Virus record (IMG/VR): IMGVR_UViG_3300025928_000015
Span: 1-46,016 of that record
Strand: one strand, 5' to 3'
Length of the DNA: 46,016 nt
DNA from: a virus
The position numbers and the translations under genes were made by a program. This document shows, in pieces, positions 2,818 to 45,971 of the stretch; position 1 is the stretch's first letter, and every line of letters begins with the position of its first letter. The notes beneath the pieces were generated by a model. It saw nothing but the letters and a program-made list of their open reading frames with translations, was not told the origin of the DNA and did no database searches.

Positions 2818-3020
2818 GACGGCCACCGCTGCCAGTCTTCCCATCGCGTCGTGATGTTCAGCTCGGCGGCGACGACCACGATCTGCGCCCACCACGTCGC
2901 GGCGTCGAGCGGGGCGTCGCCGTGGCGCAGTCGACGCAGGCTCGAAATCTTCCGCTGATCGCGCAGCATCCACGCTGGGCGCGCGTCGTCACGCCCCTCG
3001 GGCAACAGCGGCGCGCTCAT
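2814..3020 (-). CDS. small hypothetical protein
   Basis: A 68-residue product starting at an ATG that overlaps the methyltransferase stop (ATGA) and ending in a GTGA overlap with the DUF1376-type gene, so it is clearly translated within the operon. It contains a basic segment (MLRDQRKISSLRRLRHGD) and a Trp-rich C terminus (TTRWEDWQRW). I recognise no family. The coupling at both ends suggests a small accessory factor for replication or the neighbouring methyltransferase. Confidence 0.6.
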   Translation of the reverse strand: MSAPLLPEGRDDARPAWMLRDQRKISSLRRLRHGDAPLDAATWWAQIVVVAAELNITTRWEDWQRWPS

Positions 3021-3817
3021 GTGATGGCCTCCAGGCCGGCGCGCATGAACAGGGCGGCGAGCTGCGGCACTACGGCAGCACCGTAGCCGCGCAGTCGTCC
3101 CACTCGGGCGGGAACCCCATGAGCCACCGGGCATGTGCCGGGTTCAACGCGTCGCCGCGTGCCGTCGTCGAGATGGGCAACGTGGAAATGCCGCCAGTGA
3201 TCGAGTGCACCTGATGCGCCTGTCGCGGCAGCTGGTCGTTGCGCAGGCGCGTCGAGCCGTCTGGATCGATCGCCGTCGTCGCCATGCCCGGCGTGTCCTT
3301 CCAGTCGCGCGCCGAGGGTGTGGCCCATCCAGTATAGCCGCTGGCGTCGATGGGGAGCGCCGAGCAGCGCAGCCGGGAGATCGGCGGCCCCGACGGCATA
3401 TCCCACGTGCTCCAGATCAGCTCGAATTCCGGCGAGCCATTCACGTCCGTCAGCGCCCGCAACCTGCTCTCCAAAGACCACTGCAGGGCGGCGGACGGCG
3501 ACGAGGCGGAAAAAAGCGGGCCAGACGTGTCGTTGGTCGACATGGCCTCGCTGCTCGCCAAGCTGCGAAAGCGGCTGACAGGGAAGACTGGCGGTCCAGA
3601 TCGCGGCGTCGTCAGCCAGTCCAGCAAGTCGAGCTGCACGGGGCCAGCCGCCGATGCCGGCGAAGAAGTGGCATTGCCCGTAGCCCCGGAGATCGGGTGC
3701 CGTGACATCAGCAACGTCGCGTTGATCGACATCGCCGTCGGCGATCAGCCCGGCGGCGATCAGCGTGCGCAGCCAGTGGGCGGCAAACGGGTCGTTGTCG
3801 TTGTAGTAGGCGCGCAT
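3017..3817 (-). CDS. DNA cytosine-5 methyltransferase
   Basis: Transfers a methyl group from S-adenosylmethionine to cytosine in DNA. Motif I (FAGIGG, about 52-57), the catalytic PCQPLS of motif IV (79-84) and QRLYW of motif VIII (159-163) are present; the usual ENV of motif VI is GEQV, and motif X reads [11 protein letters not shown] where GN is commoner. At 266 residues it is short, as in orphan phage Dcm-like enzymes with a small target domain. No restriction partner is nearby, so protection from host restriction is the likely role. The ATG at 3817 has GGGAT eight bases upstream; a GTG one codon earlier is possible. Confidence 0.88.
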
Positions 3818-3832
3818 CACAGATGATCCCGG

Positions 3833-14660: not shown

Positions 14661-15875
14661 ATGGAAGACTTCATCACGACGACGAAGCAGCCGAGCGGCA
14701 AGGTCGTCTACTATCTGCGACTGCCGAAGACGCTGTCGCATTTGCCGGGCTACGGGCAGAAGCTGCGCATGCCCGGCACACCGGGCTCGCCCGAGTGGCG
14801 GGCGTTCTATCGCGCGACGCTGGCGGGCGAGACGAGTGACGAGCCCGTCAAGCGACAGCTGCCGACGCCCAAGCTGCCGGGCGGCGTGCGCATGGGCTCG
14901 CTGCGCGCGCTCGTCGTCGACTATCTGCAAAGCGCCGAGTACAAGTCGATGGACGCGATGCCCGCGAAGCATCGTCGCCGCTATCTCGAGGAAATCTGCG
15001 CGAGCACCGATCACGTCGAAAAGACGCGCACGCGCGCCGATCTCAACGTGGACAAGATCAGGCGCAGCGACTGCGTCGCGATCCACACCGATGCCGCGTG
15101 GCTCGACTTCGGCTCGTCGACAGCTGACAGCCGATTGATCGCGCTGCGCACGCTGTTCTCGTGGGCTGTGCTCAAGGATCGCATGCCGGGCAACCCTGCA
15201 GCGAAGATCAAGATGCTGCGCAGCGACGACGACACGCACGACGCTTGGACTGCTGACGACTGCGAGCGCTACAAGCGCGCGCACCCCGTCGGCACGATGG
15301 CGCGTCTCGCGTTCGACATCTTCTGGACGACGGGCGTGCGTCGCTCAGACTGCTATCGCCTCGGGCCTCAGCACTTCGAGGGCGGCATGCTCGAATTCAC
15401 CGAGCACAAGGGCGCGCGCTCGAAGGCGCTGATGGCAAAGGGTCGCTTCAAGCGCAAGGAGCGCCAGCTGCCAATGACGGCAGAGCTGGCGCGCTCGATC
15501 ATCGAGACGCGCAAGGCGATGCCGCCGAAGCGTCACAAGACGCAGTCGGGCAAGCCCTACGGCAAGCAGCTCGTGTTCCTGCTCGACGACTTCGGCAACC
15601 CGTTCAACTGCGGGCGCTTCGGCAAAGCGATGCGGGCCTGGACGGCGGCAGCCGGCCTCAAGGGCAAGAGCGCGCACGGCATTCGACACGCTGTCGGCAA
15701 TCGACTGGCCGAAGAAGGCATGAGCGAGAAGCAGATCGCCAACTTCCTCGGGCACTCGTCGCTGCAGCACGTGCGTCGCTACACGCTGCACGCCGACAAG
15801 CTCAAAATGGCGCACGACGCTATCGGGCTGCTCGGCACGAAGGCCAACGCAGCGTTGCTTCGGGAGGTCGCGTGA
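14661..15875 (+). CDS. int: tyrosine recombinase integrase
   Basis: 404 residues. The C-terminal catalytic domain has R227 (in TTGVRRSD), the HGIR box with H339 and R342, H365 in LGHSS and the nucleophile Y374 in VRRYTLHAD. The N-terminal 90 residues should bind arm-type sites and about 90-190 the core (SAM-like helices). It integrates phage DNA at attP/attB by strand exchange through a phosphotyrosine link. The excisionase lies upstream and a repeat-rich non-coding region downstream (17142-17300) is the best attP candidate. Confidence 0.95.
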   Translation: MEDFITTTKQPSGKVVYYLRLPKTLSHLPGYGQKLRMPGTPGSPEWRAFYRATLAGETSDEPVKRQLPTPKLPGGVRMGSLRALVVDYLQSAEYKSMDAMPAKHRRRYLEEICASTDHVEKTRTRADLNVDKIRRSDCVAIHTDAAWLDFGSSTADSRLIALRTLFSWAVLKDRMPGNPAAKIKMLRSDDDTHDAWTADDCERYKRAHPVGTMARLAFDIFWTTGVRRSDCYRLGPQHFEGGMLEFTEHKGARSKALMAKGRFKRKERQLPMTAELARSIIETRKAMPPKRHKTQSGKPYGKQLVFLLDDFGNPFNCGRFGKAMRAWTAAAGLKGKSAHGIRHAVGNRLAEEGMSEKQIANFLGHSSLQHVRRYTLHADKLKMAHDAIGLLGTKANAALLREVA

Positions 15876-41154: not shown

Positions 41155-41459
41155 TCGAGAAGGTCAAGCTATGGGTCGGCAGCGACGCGCAGCCGATCAT
41201 CGACGCGCTCGCCCGCCTGCAGCTCGATCTCGGCACGCTGCGCGCCGGCCAGCTCTTTTACAACGCGCCCGACGAGGCGCGACTGCTGTGCGTCGTGGTG
41301 GGCGACGAGGCAGCGGTGCAGCAGCTGCGCATCGATCTCGGGCGCGAGCTGGTCGACGAAGACGACGCGACGCAGCAGCTCGCCAGTCACGTTGCGCTGA
41401 TCACGCTGCGCAATGGCGTGCTGGTCGTGTTTCGCGACATCGTGGCGGTCGTTGCCTAG
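41151..41459 (+). CDS. hypothetical protein, second of a tandem pair
   Basis: 102 residues, paralogous to the preceding product: ALARLQLDLGTLRAGQL, ARLLCVVVGDEAAVQQLRIDLGRELVDED and VALITLRNGVLVVFRDIVAVVA. ATG overlaps the previous stop. The stop overlaps the opposing ASCH-like gene by four bases, so the two units converge tail to tail without room for a terminator. Confidence 0.6.
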   Translation: MIEKVKLWVGSDAQPIIDALARLQLDLGTLRAGQLFYNAPDEARLLCVVVGDEAAVQQLRIDLGRELVDEDDATQQLASHVALITLRNGVLVVFRDIVAVVA

Positions 41460-41881
41460 AGCCGCTCGACGAGCAGGCGATGCAGCCCGCCGTCAGGCAG
41501 CAGGCGGCGCGCGATCTGCGGCGGGTTGAAGTCGGGCTCGATCTGGCGCAGCTCGTTGAGCGTCGCGCCCGCGATGTCGCGCACGCCCCGCAGCTCGAGG
41601 ACGGTCGCCCACTGGCAGCCGTCGAGATACAGATCGACCTCGCGCCGTGCGAAGCCGAGCCGCTCGCCGTAGAGCGACCAGACGCGGCTGCGGGCGACCT
41701 CGCCGACGCTTTCCAGGCGGGCGATCAGCGCCACGGCGCGCACCGGCAGCTTGACGTAGAACCAGATGCGCGAGCCCGCCGGCATGTGCAGGCGACGACG
41801 ACGCAGCTCGACCGACTTCACGCCCCGTTGATAGGCGGCGAAGGCTTCGGGTGTGATCGTCATCAACACATCGTTTGTCAT
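41456..41881 (-). CDS. ASCH/PUA-like domain protein
   Basis: 141 residues from ATG 41881, seven bases after the terminase stop. NDVLMTITPEAFAAYQRGVKSVELRRRR at the start, SRIWFYVKLPVRAVALIARLESVG in the middle and a helical end follow the ASCH pattern (I-P-A-I-x-G-K-x-E-R then a strand ending in Y-x-x-P). ASCH and related PUA folds bind RNA or modified DNA bases. A copy of the operator palindrome (41862-41878) covers its first codons. Confidence 0.65.
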   Translation of the reverse strand: MTNDVLMTITPEAFAAYQRGVKSVELRRRRLHMPAGSRIWFYVKLPVRAVALIARLESVGEVARSRVWSLYGERLGFARREVDLYLDGCQWATVLELRGVRDIAGATLNELRQIEPDFNPPQIARRLLPDGGLHRLLVERL

Positions 41882-41888
41882 GCGCCGA

Positions 41889-43676
41889 CTATCGCTCATC
41901 CGGTGGTGCGCCGCCAATGTAGAAAACGCCCGGCTCGCCGCCCTCGGTCGTGGCGATCATGCGCCCGATCGCCATGATCAGCGCCGACATGCCGTCGATG
42001 CGCCCGATGCTGTTCTGCTTGTGCGGCATCTCGTTGAGGTTCTTGTCGCGCTGCACTTTCAGGTTCGACGCCATCACCGTCAGCACGGGATTGTCGCCGT
42101 GGTCGAGCTTGGTGCCGGCGATCAGCGCCTGCAGCTCCTTGGTCGGCGCGGTGTAGCTGCGCAGCCCTTGGATGAATTCGAGCGCCTCGACGCCGCCTTC
42201 GTTCAGCTCGACGCCGAGCTGCGTGGCGTTCCACGGATCGAAGGCGACGCTCTGCAGATCGAAGTGCTCGGCGTCCTGCAGCACGGCGCGCTTGATCTCG
42301 CCATAGTCGATGACGTTGCCGGGCGTCGCCTCGATCCAGCCTTCCTCGACCCAGCGCCGGTAGGGCATGCGGTCGCGGTCGGCGCGTTCCTCGATGGTGT
42401 CCGCCGGCATCCAGAAGCGCGCCACGATGCGATGGCGACCCTCGTCGTCGGCGTCGAACAGCTTGACCCACGCGGTGATGTCGATTTTCGACGACAGGTC
42501 CAGGCCGCCCCAGCAGCGCCGCTGCTCGGGCGCGATCTTGTCGGGATCGAACCGCCCGCGCGAATTCTTCGCCCACTGCAGCATGTCGATGGCGCGCTCG
42601 GCGACGCTGCTGCGCACGTTGAGCCGCAGCCGCTTGAACGCCGACAGCGCCGACGGCGATCCTGCCGCCTTCTTCGCCTGTCGCTCGAGGTCGTCGAGCT
42701 TCACCGACACGCCGAGGTTGGGGTTGGCCTTGGCCCACGCCACCGGATCGTCCCAACGGTCGGTCTTGTCGATGGTGGCGATGAAGGCGAACACGTTGTC
42801 GTCCTCGATCACGCCTTCGAGCACCTTGATCGCGTAGTCGTTCTCCGTGGCGTAGACGCTTTCCGGCGCGTCGTCGCCCGCCGTCGTGATGATCCACAGC
42901 AGCGGCTGGCGTCGCGCACCGAGCGCGGTGTCGAGCACGTCGAGCAGGGCGCGCGTGCGATGCTTGTGCAGCTCGTCGATCAGCAGCCCGTGCGGGTTCA
43001 GCCCGTCGAGCGTGCGCTCGTCGCTCGACAGCGGCTCGAATTTCGACGCCGTGCGGTCGACGCTCATGTTGAGCTTGAAGCGGGCGATGCTGGCGGCCAG
43101 CTCGGGGCTCGCGCCCACCATCCGCTTCGCCTCGTCGAAGATGATGCGGGCCTGGTCCTTCTTCGTCGCGGCGGCATAAATCTCCGCGCCCGGCTCGTCG
43201 TCGCACAGCAGCAGATCGATGCCGACGCCTGCGAGCTTGGTGGACTTGCCGTTCTTGCGCGGCAATTCCTCGTAGACGTAGCGAAAGCGCCGCGTGCCGT
43301 CGCGCCGCTTCCAGCCGAACACGCTGCCGATCACGAATTTCTGCCACGCTCCCAGCTCGACGGGCTGGCGCGCCCATTCGCCTTTGCTGTGGCGCAGGAA
43401 CGCCGGATAGAAGCGCATGCGGTGCTGCGCCGTCGCCACGTCCCAAACCAGGCCGCGCGTCTTGCCGCGCCTGAGATCGCGCAGGTGCCGCTTGCACGCC
43501 AGCTTGACGTAGCGACAGGCGACGATGTCGTCGGCCACCACGGCGCGGGCATAGGCGGTCGTCTCGTCAAGCGCGTCGGTCGTCAGGGAGCCGTCGCGCC
43601 CAGAGGCGACCTTGCGTGTCGACGCGGTACTCGAATTCGTCTTCCTGCGTCGGTCCGGGGCAGGGGCACTCGGCAT
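41889..43676 (-). CDS. terL: terminase large subunit
   Basis: HK97-type packaging motor. ATPase part: YVYEELPRKNGKSTKLAG as the Walker A-like loop, GLLIDELHKH as Walker B, WIITTAG as coupling motif; nuclease part with GGLDLSSKID and later acidic residues (about 400-560). It pumps DNA into the prohead and cuts it. The start is uncertain: homologues seem to begin near TTDALDETTAYARAVV, which here follows a CTG codon at 43586; ATG 43676 is the nearest standard start but overlaps the upstream gene by 109 bases. Confidence 0.92.
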   Translation of the reverse strand: MPSAPAPDRRRKTNSSTASTRKVASGRDGSLTTDALDETTAYARAVVADDIVACRYVKLACKRHLRDLRRGKTRGLVWDVATAQHRMRFYPAFLRHSKGEWARQPVELGAWQKFVIGSVFGWKRRDGTRRFRYVYEELPRKNGKSTKLAGVGIDLLLCDDEPGAEIYAAATKKDQARIIFDEAKRMVGASPELAASIARFKLNMSVDRTASKFEPLSSDERTLDGLNPHGLLIDELHKHRTRALLDVLDTALGARRQPLLWIITTAGDDAPESVYATENDYAIKVLEGVIEDDNVFAFIATIDKTDRWDDPVAWAKANPNLGVSVKLDDLERQAKKAAGSPSALSAFKRLRLNVRSSVAERAIDMLQWAKNSRGRFDPDKIAPEQRRCWGGLDLSSKIDITAWVKLFDADDEGRHRIVARFWMPADTIEERADRDRMPYRRWVEEGWIEATPGNVIDYGEIKRAVLQDAEHFDLQSVAFDPWNATQLGVELNEGGVEALEFIQGLRSYTAPTKELQALIAGTKLDHGDNPVLTVMASNLKVQRDKNLNEMPHKQNSIGRIDGMSALIMAIGRMIATTEGGEPGVFYIGGAPPDER

Positions 43677-43764
43677 AGTCGACACCACAGATCGGACAGT
43701 TGCCCAGCTCGTCGCAGTCAGCGCCGAACACAACGCGCTGCCACGGGCGCACGCGGGTCGTCAT
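43567..43764 (-). CDS. small cysteine-rich protein between terminases
   Basis: 65 residues with CPICGVDYAECPCPGPTQEDEFEY and RLWARRL, a pattern I know from many phages next to the terminases; the three to four cysteines could hold zinc. Function unknown, perhaps in packaging. ATG overlaps the small-terminase stop (ATGA). Confidence 0.7.
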   Translation of the reverse strand: MTTRVRPWQRVVFGADCDELGNCPICGVDYAECPCPGPTQEDEFEYRVDTQGRLWARRLPDDRRA

Positions 43765-44282
43765 GAGTTGAGCCGGTCGGGCTTCTCGGCGAGGTAGGCG
43801 GCGAGACTGCCGCGCACAGCGCCGCGCGTGGCGCGCTCGCTCTTGGGGTTGAGCAGCGGGCCGCCGCCGAATTGCGGCGCGCGGTCGCCCAGCGATGCGC
43901 GTGCTGCGGGCGAGAAGCCCAGCTCGCCGCCGGCTTTGAGCATGATCATCGCTTGGCGGTTCACGACGCCGAGGTAGGGGTTTTGGATGACGTTGCCGTC
44001 CTTGGTCTTCACGATCTGGCCGCTGCGTCGCACCTCGACCACGGCGCGCGCGTGCTCGACGCAGGCCACGCACCAGATCACCAGCGCTTCGCGGTCGGTG
44101 CCGGTGAGCAGTCCCGGCGGCGCGTATTCGAGGGCGTAGTGCCACTGCGCGCGCTGCTCGTCGTCGAACCACTCGGGCGGTGCCCAGAGATCGCCGACGC
44201 CTTCGGGCTCGTTCTTCGGCAGCGGATGGTTGCCGGGGTTGCCGTGCAGCTTCTTCAACGCCGTCGGCACGATCTTGGTCAT
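43761..44282 (-). CDS. terS: terminase small subunit, P27-like
   Basis: 173 residues. KLHGNPGNHPLPKNEPEG at the start, then PPEWFDDEQRAQWHYALEYAPPGLLTGTDREALVIWCVACVEHARA, and GGELGFSPAARASLG near the end are the P27 family signatures. It recognises the packaging site and stimulates the large subunit. Starts five bases after the ABC-GNAT stop. Confidence 0.9.
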   Translation of the reverse strand: MTKIVPTALKKLHGNPGNHPLPKNEPEGVGDLWAPPEWFDDEQRAQWHYALEYAPPGLLTGTDREALVIWCVACVEHARAVVEVRRSGQIVKTKDGNVIQNPYLGVVNRQAMIMLKAGGELGFSPAARASLGDRAPQFGGGPLLNPKSERATRGAVRGSLAAYLAEKPDRLNS

Positions 44283-44286
44283 GGCG

Positions 44287-45396
44287 TCACTCCGCGATCA
44301 GGTCGCCCAGAGCGGGATCTGTGACAGGCTCGCCGCAGTAGCTGAAAACCGCGCACGGGCGCCCGCCGCTGCCGAATTCCTCGGCACGACCTGGTCGGCG
44401 CTGCGGCGACGAAAACTTGCCGGGCTTCTTCTCCAGCTTCCACCGCGGGGAGTGATCGAAGCTCCTGATCAGCGACGGATGCGCCGGGTAGGTGCGCAGC
44501 TGCCAGCCGCGCCCGCGATAGAGCGCGCCGAGCTGGTCGACGAGGATCAGCGCCAGCCCGAGCCCTTGCCAGTCGGGCAGCGTGACGAGGCGCGACACGC
44601 CCTTGATGAAATTCGAGCGACCATGCGGGCGGTGGATCACGCCGGCGAACGCTGTCGGCTCGTCGCCGATGAACAGCGCCCAGCACGCCGCCGCCTTGTT
44701 GAGCTCCGCTGTCAGATAGTGAAACGGCGCGAATAGCTGCCACGTGCGGTACTCGACGCGGCGAAGCTCGACATCGATCGGTGGTCGTCGTTGAAGCGAC
44801 CTCCATGTGAAGACCATCGTGGCCGGCTCGAACGTCCAGTCGGGCTGCAGCCATTCGATGATGTCGTAGTGGCACGACGCGGCAATGAAGCGCTTGTCGG
44901 CGCGGCGCACCGCCTTCTGCACGGCGTGCGCGCCGATCTTGGCGACTTGCCGGTCGACGACGCTGGTGAATTCGTCGACGACGATCAGGCCCTCGGTTTC
45001 GAGCAGCCGTCGCGCCAGCTCGACGCGGAACTTCTCGCCATTCGACAGCACGTCGAACGGGCGCAGCCACGCCGGGATGGTGTTGAAGCCGACCGCCTGA
45101 CAGGCGCGCGCGATGTCCTGCATCGTCAGCGCCGTCGAGAAGTCGTCGATGACCGACGCCCCGTTCCACTGCAGCTCGGCGGGCGTGCCGAACAGCTGGC
45201 GCAGGATCGACGACTTGCCGCTGCCCGACGGGCCGACGATCAGGCCGACATTCCACGGTCGATCATCCAGCGGCAGATCGCCGTGCCATTCGAGATGCGC
45301 CACCTGGGCGGCAGGGACATCGAACATCGCTTCGAGCTGCAGCGCGCGCGCCGAGCGGGAAAGCGGGCTCTCGACTACGAGATCAATGCGCGGCAC
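44287..45396 (-). CDS. ABC ATPase fused to GNAT acetyltransferase
   Basis: 369 residues from GTG 45396 (GGAGGG six bases upstream). The N-terminal half is a complete ABC ATPase: Walker A GPSGSGKSS (55-63), signature LSNGEKFR (117-124), Walker B GLIVVDEFTS (136-145) and H-loop SCH (174-176). The C-terminal half (about 205-315) is GNAT-like, with FAGVIHRPHG and the acetyl-CoA loop QGLGLA (277-282). No membrane part exists, so it is not a transporter. I recall this architecture as COG2401. A role in DNA base modification, Mom-like, is plausible but unproven. Confidence 0.85.
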   Translation of the reverse strand: MPRIDLVVESPLSRSARALQLEAMFDVPAAQVAHLEWHGDLPLDDRPWNVGLIVGPSGSGKSSILRQLFGTPAELQWNGASVIDDFSTALTMQDIARACQAVGFNTIPAWLRPFDVLSNGEKFRVELARRLLETEGLIVVDEFTSVVDRQVAKIGAHAVQKAVRRADKRFIAASCHYDIIEWLQPDWTFEPATMVFTWRSLQRRPPIDVELRRVEYRTWQLFAPFHYLTAELNKAAACWALFIGDEPTAFAGVIHRPHGRSNFIKGVSRLVTLPDWQGLGLALILVDQLGALYRGRGWQLRTYPAHPSLIRSFDHSPRWKLEKKPGKFSSPQRRPGRAEEFGSGGRPCAVFSYCGEPVTDPALGDLIAE

Positions 45397-45971
45397 TTGA
45401 GGCCCTCCGTCCGGAAGCGCTCGATCAGCTCGGCCTGCTGCTGCTCGCCCTCGCAATCGACGATGACGCGGTAGGCCATGCCGTCGCCGAGCTTGGCGTC
45501 GGCGGTTTCAGCGCCCGAGCCGCCCCACGTCTGCATCACGCTCTCGATCTCCTTCTCGGAGAAGCCCATCGTGGCGAGCCCGCCGTCGATGCTCTGCAGA
45601 TCGTGCAGCTCGAGGCGCAGCAGCTCGTCGTCCCACTGCGAGTTGAGGCCGAGCTTGTTGTCGGCGATGGCGTAGGCGCGCTTTTTGTCCTCGCTCCAAC
45701 CGCGCGCGACCACACACGGAACGTCTGGCAACCCGAGCTTGATCGCGGCCAACAGTCGCCCGTGGCCTGCCAACACTCCGTTGTCTTCGTCGATCAGCAG
45801 GGGAACCGTGAAGCCCCACCGCGTGATCGCGTCGGCCAGCTGATCGACCTGTCGCTCGCTGTGCTTGCGCGCGTTGCGCTTGTAGGGCGTGAGCTGGTCG
45901 GGCTTGCGCAGCACGACCTGCTCGCCCGGCATGCGCGGGACGGGCCGCAGCTTCGCCACCTTGGACCCCAT
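45375..45971 (-). CDS. ParB-like nuclease-domain protein
   Basis: 198 residues. NARKHSERQVDQLADAITRWGFTVPLLID, GVLAGHGRLLAAIKLGLPDVPCVV and AYAIADNKLGLNSQWDDELL form the ParB/Srx N-terminal domain, including the GHGR box; the helix-turn-helix of true ParB is missing. The C terminus (YRVIVDCEGEQQQAELIERF, then LKCRALI) is shared with phage relatives that accompany ABC-GNAT or methyltransferase genes. Likely part of a DNA modification or packaging-associated module. ATG 45971 follows GGGGGCGG. Confidence 0.85.
   Translation of the reverse strand: MGSKVAKLRPVPRMPGEQVVLRKPDQLTPYKRNARKHSERQVDQLADAITRWGFTVPLLIDEDNGVLAGHGRLLAAIKLGLPDVPCVVARGWSEDKKRAYAIADNKLGLNSQWDDELLRLELHDLQSIDGGLATMGFSEKEIESVMQTWGGSGAETADAKLGDGMAYRVIVDCEGEQQQAELIERFRTEGLKCRALIS

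Follow-up and report, generated by a model that had tools for sequence, protein, structure and literature searches.

What is a soluble ABC ATPase fused to a GNAT acetyltransferase doing in a phage genome, behind a ParB-like gene and next to the terminases? The locus lies on the 46-kb IMG/VR virus record IMGVR_UViG_3300025928_000015 (positions 1-46,016), which in its whole length is referred to as the window. An earlier note, written from the sequence alone, had placed this gene pair beside the terminases, which is borne out by Pfam, PHROG and AlphaFold2, and it was also right about an ASCH-like protein just past them and about a cytosine methyltransferase in the early region. The relevant features are as follows.

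45375-45971 (-): ParB/Srx-fold protein of 198 aa (PHROG 620 and 498)
44287-45396 (-): ABC ATPase-GNAT fusion (ABC-GNAT) of 369 aa (Pfam, PHROG 11143, AlphaFold2; start from a 22-nt overlap)
43761-44282 (-): TerS, P27 family (TIGR01558, E 6e-14; PF05119, E 2e-13)
41889-43733 (-): TerL (PF03354, PF20441, PHROG 9)
41456-41881 (-): ASCH-domain protein of the ZmASCH type (PDB IDs 5guq/5y6c, E ~1e-15)
14661-15875 (+): tyrosine integrase (PF00589, E 3e-15), suggesting that the phage is probably temperate
3017-3820 (-): C5-cytosine DNA methyltransferase-like ORF in the early region, far from the cassette (partial profile match to PF00145 at 3317-3610 (-), E 4e-15)

The window ABC-GNAT matches the Pfam families ABC_tran (E 6e-8) and Acetyltransf_1 (E 4e-4), both exceeding the cut-off, and PHROG 11143, a family of unknown function, spans the whole protein (E 3e-97). 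Its Walker A (GPSGSGKS), signature (LSNGE), Walker B/D-loop (VVDEFTSVVDR) and H-loop (CHYD) motifs are all intact and are joined to a GNAT domain with an intact acyl-CoA loop (QGLGLA), as expected for this family. In an alignment of 56 relatives, Walker A, the LSxGE signature, DEFTSVVDR, CHxD and the R-V-P-Q-G of the acyl-CoA loop are invariant or nearly so. The AlphaFold2 model, based on 56 homologues, has a mean pLDDT of 90 and shows two domains in a soluble fold. In Pfam and PHROG searches neither the fusion nor the adjacent genes contain a permease domain, arguing against a transporter nucleotide-binding domain, and the database name “ABC transporter” is a misnomer. The longest ORF opens at 45456, whereas the GTG at 45396 produces a 22-nt overlap with the parB gene. 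Of the ParB/ABC-GNAT pairs, 55 of 74 viral and 30 of 66 genomic ones have a start codon at exactly this overlap, and because it is fixed in most homologues we took the GTG as the start and dropped the one at 45456.

Relatives of the fusion are found in 314 IMG/VR stretches, 401 bacterial-genome stretches and 81 phage records. The co-occurrence analysis proposed in the earlier note supports the pairing: ParB immediately precedes the ABC-GNAT gene in 74 of 80 loci from IMG/VR and in 66 of 80 from bacterial genomes (140/160 together), far exceeding chance. The two-gene cassette of ParB and ABC-GNAT is real, conserved and common among viruses. The myophages PX29 and VmeM-32 encode an ABC-GNAT for which no adjacent ParB is annotated. 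ParB was also not detected immediately upstream of the ABC-GNAT in six loci of Nonomuraea and relatives (L132, L135, L136, L140, L142, and L145), a set covering many species of one genus; in at least one of these, L140, a terminase-like gene lies near the ABC-GNAT.

The window ParB is best described by PHROG 620 (“ParB-like partition protein”, E 9e-47) and PHROG 498 (ParB-DNA methyltransferase, E 4e-43). Its match to Pfam ParB_N is marginal, scoring 19.5 bits where the cut-off is 26.3, and the TIGR00180 ParB/RepB/Spo0J model yields 21.5 bits against a curated cut-off of 58.45, so that the protein shares only the N-terminal fold with canonical ParB. ParB-type domains bind CTP, ATP or GTP (PMC12704722). 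The C-terminal module of the window protein, YRVIVDCEGEQQQAELIERFRTEGLKCRALIS, is typical of ParBs paired with ABC-GNAT, of which 115 of 127 carry a C-terminal E..Q..[LIV] motif.

Terminase genes follow the ABC-GNAT in many loci, and the cassette usually sits just upstream of TerS/TerL. This position would suit a packaging or partition accessory: pac-site binding by ParB and the ABC ATPase, or cooperation of the two with the terminase, leaving the acyltransferase a secondary role. We consider this very improbable, since the ParB pairing stays constant while the terminase families vary, several being represented, and since the cassette is also found remote from the terminase, at the late end of the EastWest genome, near the tail genes of Komp_PAO1_1 and in PX29.

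The two domains are not always fused. ABC and GNAT are separate genes in Lactococcus P335, Streptococcus MismyG and Oenococcus Vinitor-27 phages, indicating that the domains cooperate whether fused or separate. In these Lactococcus, Streptococcus and Oenococcus phages, the split genes overlap or are adjacent (L236:5001-6055, L237:5004-6073, and L248:3995-5055), the ABC part carries a transporter annotation, and the ParB of the Oenococcus locus carries a methyltransferase annotation. Rhizobium phage RHph_N1_10 (L249:1972-7130) encodes two ParB-like genes and a GNAT-less ABC gene upstream of the terminase, with a nearby gene of 294 aa that has a weak GNAT match; this is possibly a split, divergent version of the cassette.

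That ABC-GNAT proteins acylate a base in DNA has been predicted before: Iyer et al. 2021 describe this as an earlier prediction of the same group and name Tenacibaculum phage pT24 as an example (PMC7824862). A tblastn search of the pT24 record finds a homologue of the window protein (36% identity, E 3e-53) with the same ABC and GNAT fusion. The core of the prediction is thus older than this analysis. The earlier statement that no function is established for these genes stands, and the literature searched contains no experimental test of the predicted acylation, but a function had already been proposed. We take the source of the original prediction to be a 2013 paper (doi 10.1093/nar/gkt573).

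Phage Mu Mom transfers an acyl group to adenine N6. It belongs to the GNAT superfamily too, but it lacks an ABC ATPase, and the classical acyl-CoA loop QGLG is a feature of the ABC-GNAT proteins. Mom adjoins or lies near ParB in two phages: in Microbacterium phage Appa the ParB gene overlaps the Mom gene, and Arthrobacter phage LeeroyJ carries ParB and Mom at the same locus where the Arthrobacter phage EastWest carries ParB and ABC-GNAT. The flanks of this locus are conserved on both sides, with identities of 62% for the upstream gene, 55% for the ParB N-terminus, 83% for an AlpA-like protein and 46% for the sliding clamp. Between the flanks, what differs is the enzyme, together with the C-terminal part of ParB and some small ORFs that are unrelated. 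The ParB C-terminus tracks the enzyme, having CxxC zinc-ribbon-like ends with Mom and an “E..Q..L...EG” module with ABC-GNAT. The position of ABC-GNAT is thus interchangeable with that of Mom, as seen in one phage pair, which makes the evidence strong but not statistical. Aeromonas phage PX29 carries both a Mom and an ABC-GNAT gene, at separate sites (L121:3932-4816 and L242:3911-5089).

The window protein has no match to the Mom family (PF25680), hhalign of ABC-GNAT against a 10-member Mom alignment results in a probability of 0.1-0.2%, and membership of the GNAT domain in the Mom family is ruled out by this profile comparison. In a viral structure library, Mom proteins appear beyond the homologues only amid many other GNATs. 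The idea in the earlier note of a DNA-acting, Mom-like non-transporter is supported indirectly, by genomic context, namely the Mom exchange, the ParB-methyltransferase kinship and the recurrent ASCH gene, while the GNAT domain lies outside the Mom family by sequence. As to the ParB-methyltransferase kinship, outside the ABC-GNAT system nothing comes closer to the window ParB than the N-termini of proteins that fuse ParB to an N6/N4 DNA methyltransferase, at 52-53% identity; these fusions are likewise encoded upstream of the terminase. In the PHROG 498 fusions an S-adenosylmethionine (SAM) methyltransferase is joined to ParB, whereas in the window the acyltransferase is separate.

The closest solved structures to the GNAT domain alone are RimI/GCN5-type protein acetyltransferases, which counts against a DNA-acting enzyme and would fit acetylation of a host or phage protein for host takeover, ParB and ABC then serving to direct the enzyme to its target. 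Such an activity has a precedent in the phage Rac protein, which acetylates RNA polymerase (cited in PMC7824862). We regard protein acetylation as unlikely, because it does not account for Mom and ABC-GNAT replacing one another behind a shared ParB, for the kinship to the ParB-methyltransferase fusions, or for the linked ASCH protein and the donor genes described below.

The Foldseek search with the full-length model gave TmcA (PDB ID 2zpa) at rank 19, the sole acetyltransferase among the best 50 matches. TmcA/NAT10 tRNA cytidine acetyltransferases likewise have an NTPase followed by a GNAT domain, suggesting an enzyme with tRNA or another RNA as its acylation substrate and an ASCH protein that likewise acts on RNA. 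In line with this, 2 of the 56 relatives weakly match PF13718 (best E 0.001), which we take to be the TmcA-type GNAT family; the window protein has no such match. ZmASCH, moreover, cleaves ssRNA (PMC5615036). An RNA substrate nevertheless appears quite improbable, since the TmcA ATPase is of a non-ABC class, the superposition is poor (TM 0.28) within an overall weak structural and sequence similarity, TmcA is not among the best 50 matches of the GNAT domain alone, and the ParB and Mom/methyltransferase context favors DNA.

The window ASCH protein has no Pfam match but is homologous to PDB IDs 5guq/5y6c, which are structures of ZmASCH (PMC5615036). Its octapeptide GVKSVELR fits the GxKxxExR pattern, placing it in the ASCH superfamily, and the alignment to the PDB match shows that the equivalent of the nucleic acid binding Tyr47 of ZmASCH is retained. 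Direct searches found no relatives of this protein in IMG/VR or phages, and the family was recognised via PDB. The terminase genes part it from the ABC-GNAT in the window; in other phages the linkage is tight. MismyG has the gene order ParB, ABC, GNAT, ASCH, “stress-induced protein” (probably the small terminase) and TerL, and Vinitor-27 has an ASCH gene after the ABC and GNAT parts. Both of these ASCH proteins resemble the ZmASCH-like type of the window.

Using the remainder of the same contigs as a control (49 records, 1.68 Mb), 8 of the 17 matches to the ASCH family (PF04266) lie no more than 600 nt after an ABC-GNAT match, where 0.4 are expected; the nominal binomial p value of about 2e-9 is only indicative, as the contigs are partly related and not fully independent. 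The recurrence of the families, which the earlier note had wished to see checked, therefore extends to ASCH. A second ASCH-like type, Pfam-negative but sharing the K..E.R core of the octapeptide, is also found at this position after the ABC-GNAT, usually in convergent orientation. An ASCH neighbor is present in 17 of 80 bacterial-genome ABC-GNAT loci. Among terminase-control loci, which are few and in some cases truncated, ASCH of the A5 type is found in 2 of 4 with a detected ABC-GNAT and in 0 of 26 others. Counting against a DNA-modification role of the cassette, ASCH is undetected in about two thirds of the viral relatives.

The catalytic residues of the ASCH protein YqfB are a Thr(Ser)-Lys-Glu set (PMC6972931). 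The Lys and Arg of the octapeptide are common to YqfB and the linked ASCH proteins, whereas YqfB Thr24, at position +3 from the Lys, is replaced by Glu in the window protein and in all aligned linked ASCH proteins. They are thus not YqfB-type ac4C hydrolases. A writer/eraser pair for ac4C, composed of a TmcA-like GNAT and a YqfB-like ASCH, had been raised by the TmcA match; it is weakened by the lack of the YqfB nucleophile and by the GNAT domain alone matching RimI/GCN5 instead.

PUA/ASCH-superfamily domains bind modified bases, and (PIN)-GNAT-EVE operons with ASCH have been proposed to acetylate a DNA base (PMC7641849). These operons resemble our cassette in associating a GNAT with an ASCH protein; they differ in having EVE and PIN domains and in occurring in type I RM loci or prophages, and an ABC ATPase or ParB is not reported for them. 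As ASCH is present in nearly all GNAT-EVE operons, which have been seen as toxin-antitoxin systems (PMC7641849), the cassette could in principle be a prophage defense or toxin-antitoxin module acting against superinfecting phages, and the ASCH gene is indeed a convergent, separate unit in several loci. We find this improbable, given that the cassette contains no nuclease or toxin domain and is also present in LE3 and LE4, phages described as lytic (PMC6078989).

A further line of evidence comes from genes directly after the ABC-GNAT. In an actinophage, in one viral contig, in Gemmataceae genomes and in that of a Thermoanaerobaculia bacterium, the next two genes encode the aspartate decarboxylase PanD (PF02261) and a short class III CoA-transferase (PF02515); the ParB - ABC-GNAT - PanD - CoA-transferase tandems are the following.

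L240:3453-6218 (Jace)
L076:2311-4895
L192:321-2576
L188
L149:906-3700

The CoA-transferase has about 230 aa compared to a profile of 366 positions. L126 has the CoA-transferase with PanD elsewhere, and in L125 a CoA-transferase lies nearby. A search of 37 viral records found PanD in only one, where it adjoins the ABC-GNAT. In other phages and loci, a formyltransferase (PF00551) takes the place directly after the ABC-GNAT.

L243:1826-2473 (NHagos)
L238:6110-6727 (Komp_PAO1_1)
L198:8756-9637

As there is no formyltransferase in 49 viral records, this variant is rare, and donor genes are absent from most viral relatives, which counts against DNA modification by the cassette. Where they occur, the neighboring PanD/CoA-transferase or formyltransferase genes suggest tailored acyl donors. 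As read from the genes, a route from aspartate over beta-alanine and its CoA thioester to the GNAT would be a coherent donor pathway.

Together, the Mom exchange, the ParB-methyltransferase kinship and the donor enzymes point to DNA modification. We favor, with a probability of roughly 60%, that the cassette is an anti-restriction system for Mom-like but ATP-dependent DNA acylation, using ParB and ABC-GNAT, with ASCH as a reader. The analysis establishes the gene anatomy, the intact ATPase and acyl-CoA motifs, the ParB pairing, the ASCH enrichment, the Mom exchange and the donor cassettes; we infer that the cassette acts on DNA, which base and acyl group are involved, what ATP hydrolysis and ASCH contribute, and that restriction is blocked. 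The ParB-fold protein, an NTP-binding DNA-clamp module, would load or position the ABC-GNAT on DNA; the ABC domain, probably dimeric, may use ATP to remodel DNA or flip the target; and the GNAT domain would move the acyl group from acyl-CoA to an exocyclic base amine (adenine N6 or cytosine N4). A different GNAT, aided by ATP, would thereby do what Mom does for phage Mu. The ASCH protein would most likely recognise the modified base, as a reader or an accessory factor. Some relatives would make a donor of their own, PanD yielding beta-alanine and the class III CoA-transferase beta-alanyl-CoA, and the formyltransferase of other phages may supply a special donor. A more detailed version, which we put forward only tentatively and hold to be doubtful as a whole, is that ABC-GNATs are ATP-dependent DNA acylases with the donor set by their neighbors, the Jace type beta-alanylating a base and the window type using acetyl-CoA or another host acyl-CoA, with the ParB C-terminus as a dock and ASCH reading the product.

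The linkage to ASCH, the swap with Mom, the coupled change of the ParB C-terminus and the PanD/CoA-transferase and formyltransferase cassettes appear to be new. They are not described in the literature searched, where neither COG2401 nor the combination of PanD/CoA-transferase, ParB and DNA modification gave a match. The PMC7824862 text does not mention the ParB partner, the ASCH linkage, the Mom exchange or the donor genes; the original paper may contain some of these, such as the ParB and ASCH links.

With relatives this widespread in viral and bacterial sequences, a class of phage DNA chemistry may be unmeasured. The Mom exchange and the donor cassettes narrow the general prediction down to the cultured phages Jace, EastWest, MismyG and NHagos, with virion DNA accessible to mass spectrometry. 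For the beta-alanyl type a definite mass is expected, and beta-alanine on a DNA base in the type of Jace, L076, L192, L188 and L149 would, if true, be an unreported hypermodified base. If the proposed function is true, ATP-driven base acylation would join the counter-defense repertoire of phages, helping them to evade bacterial defenses, with the ASCH protein as a candidate reader of the modification.
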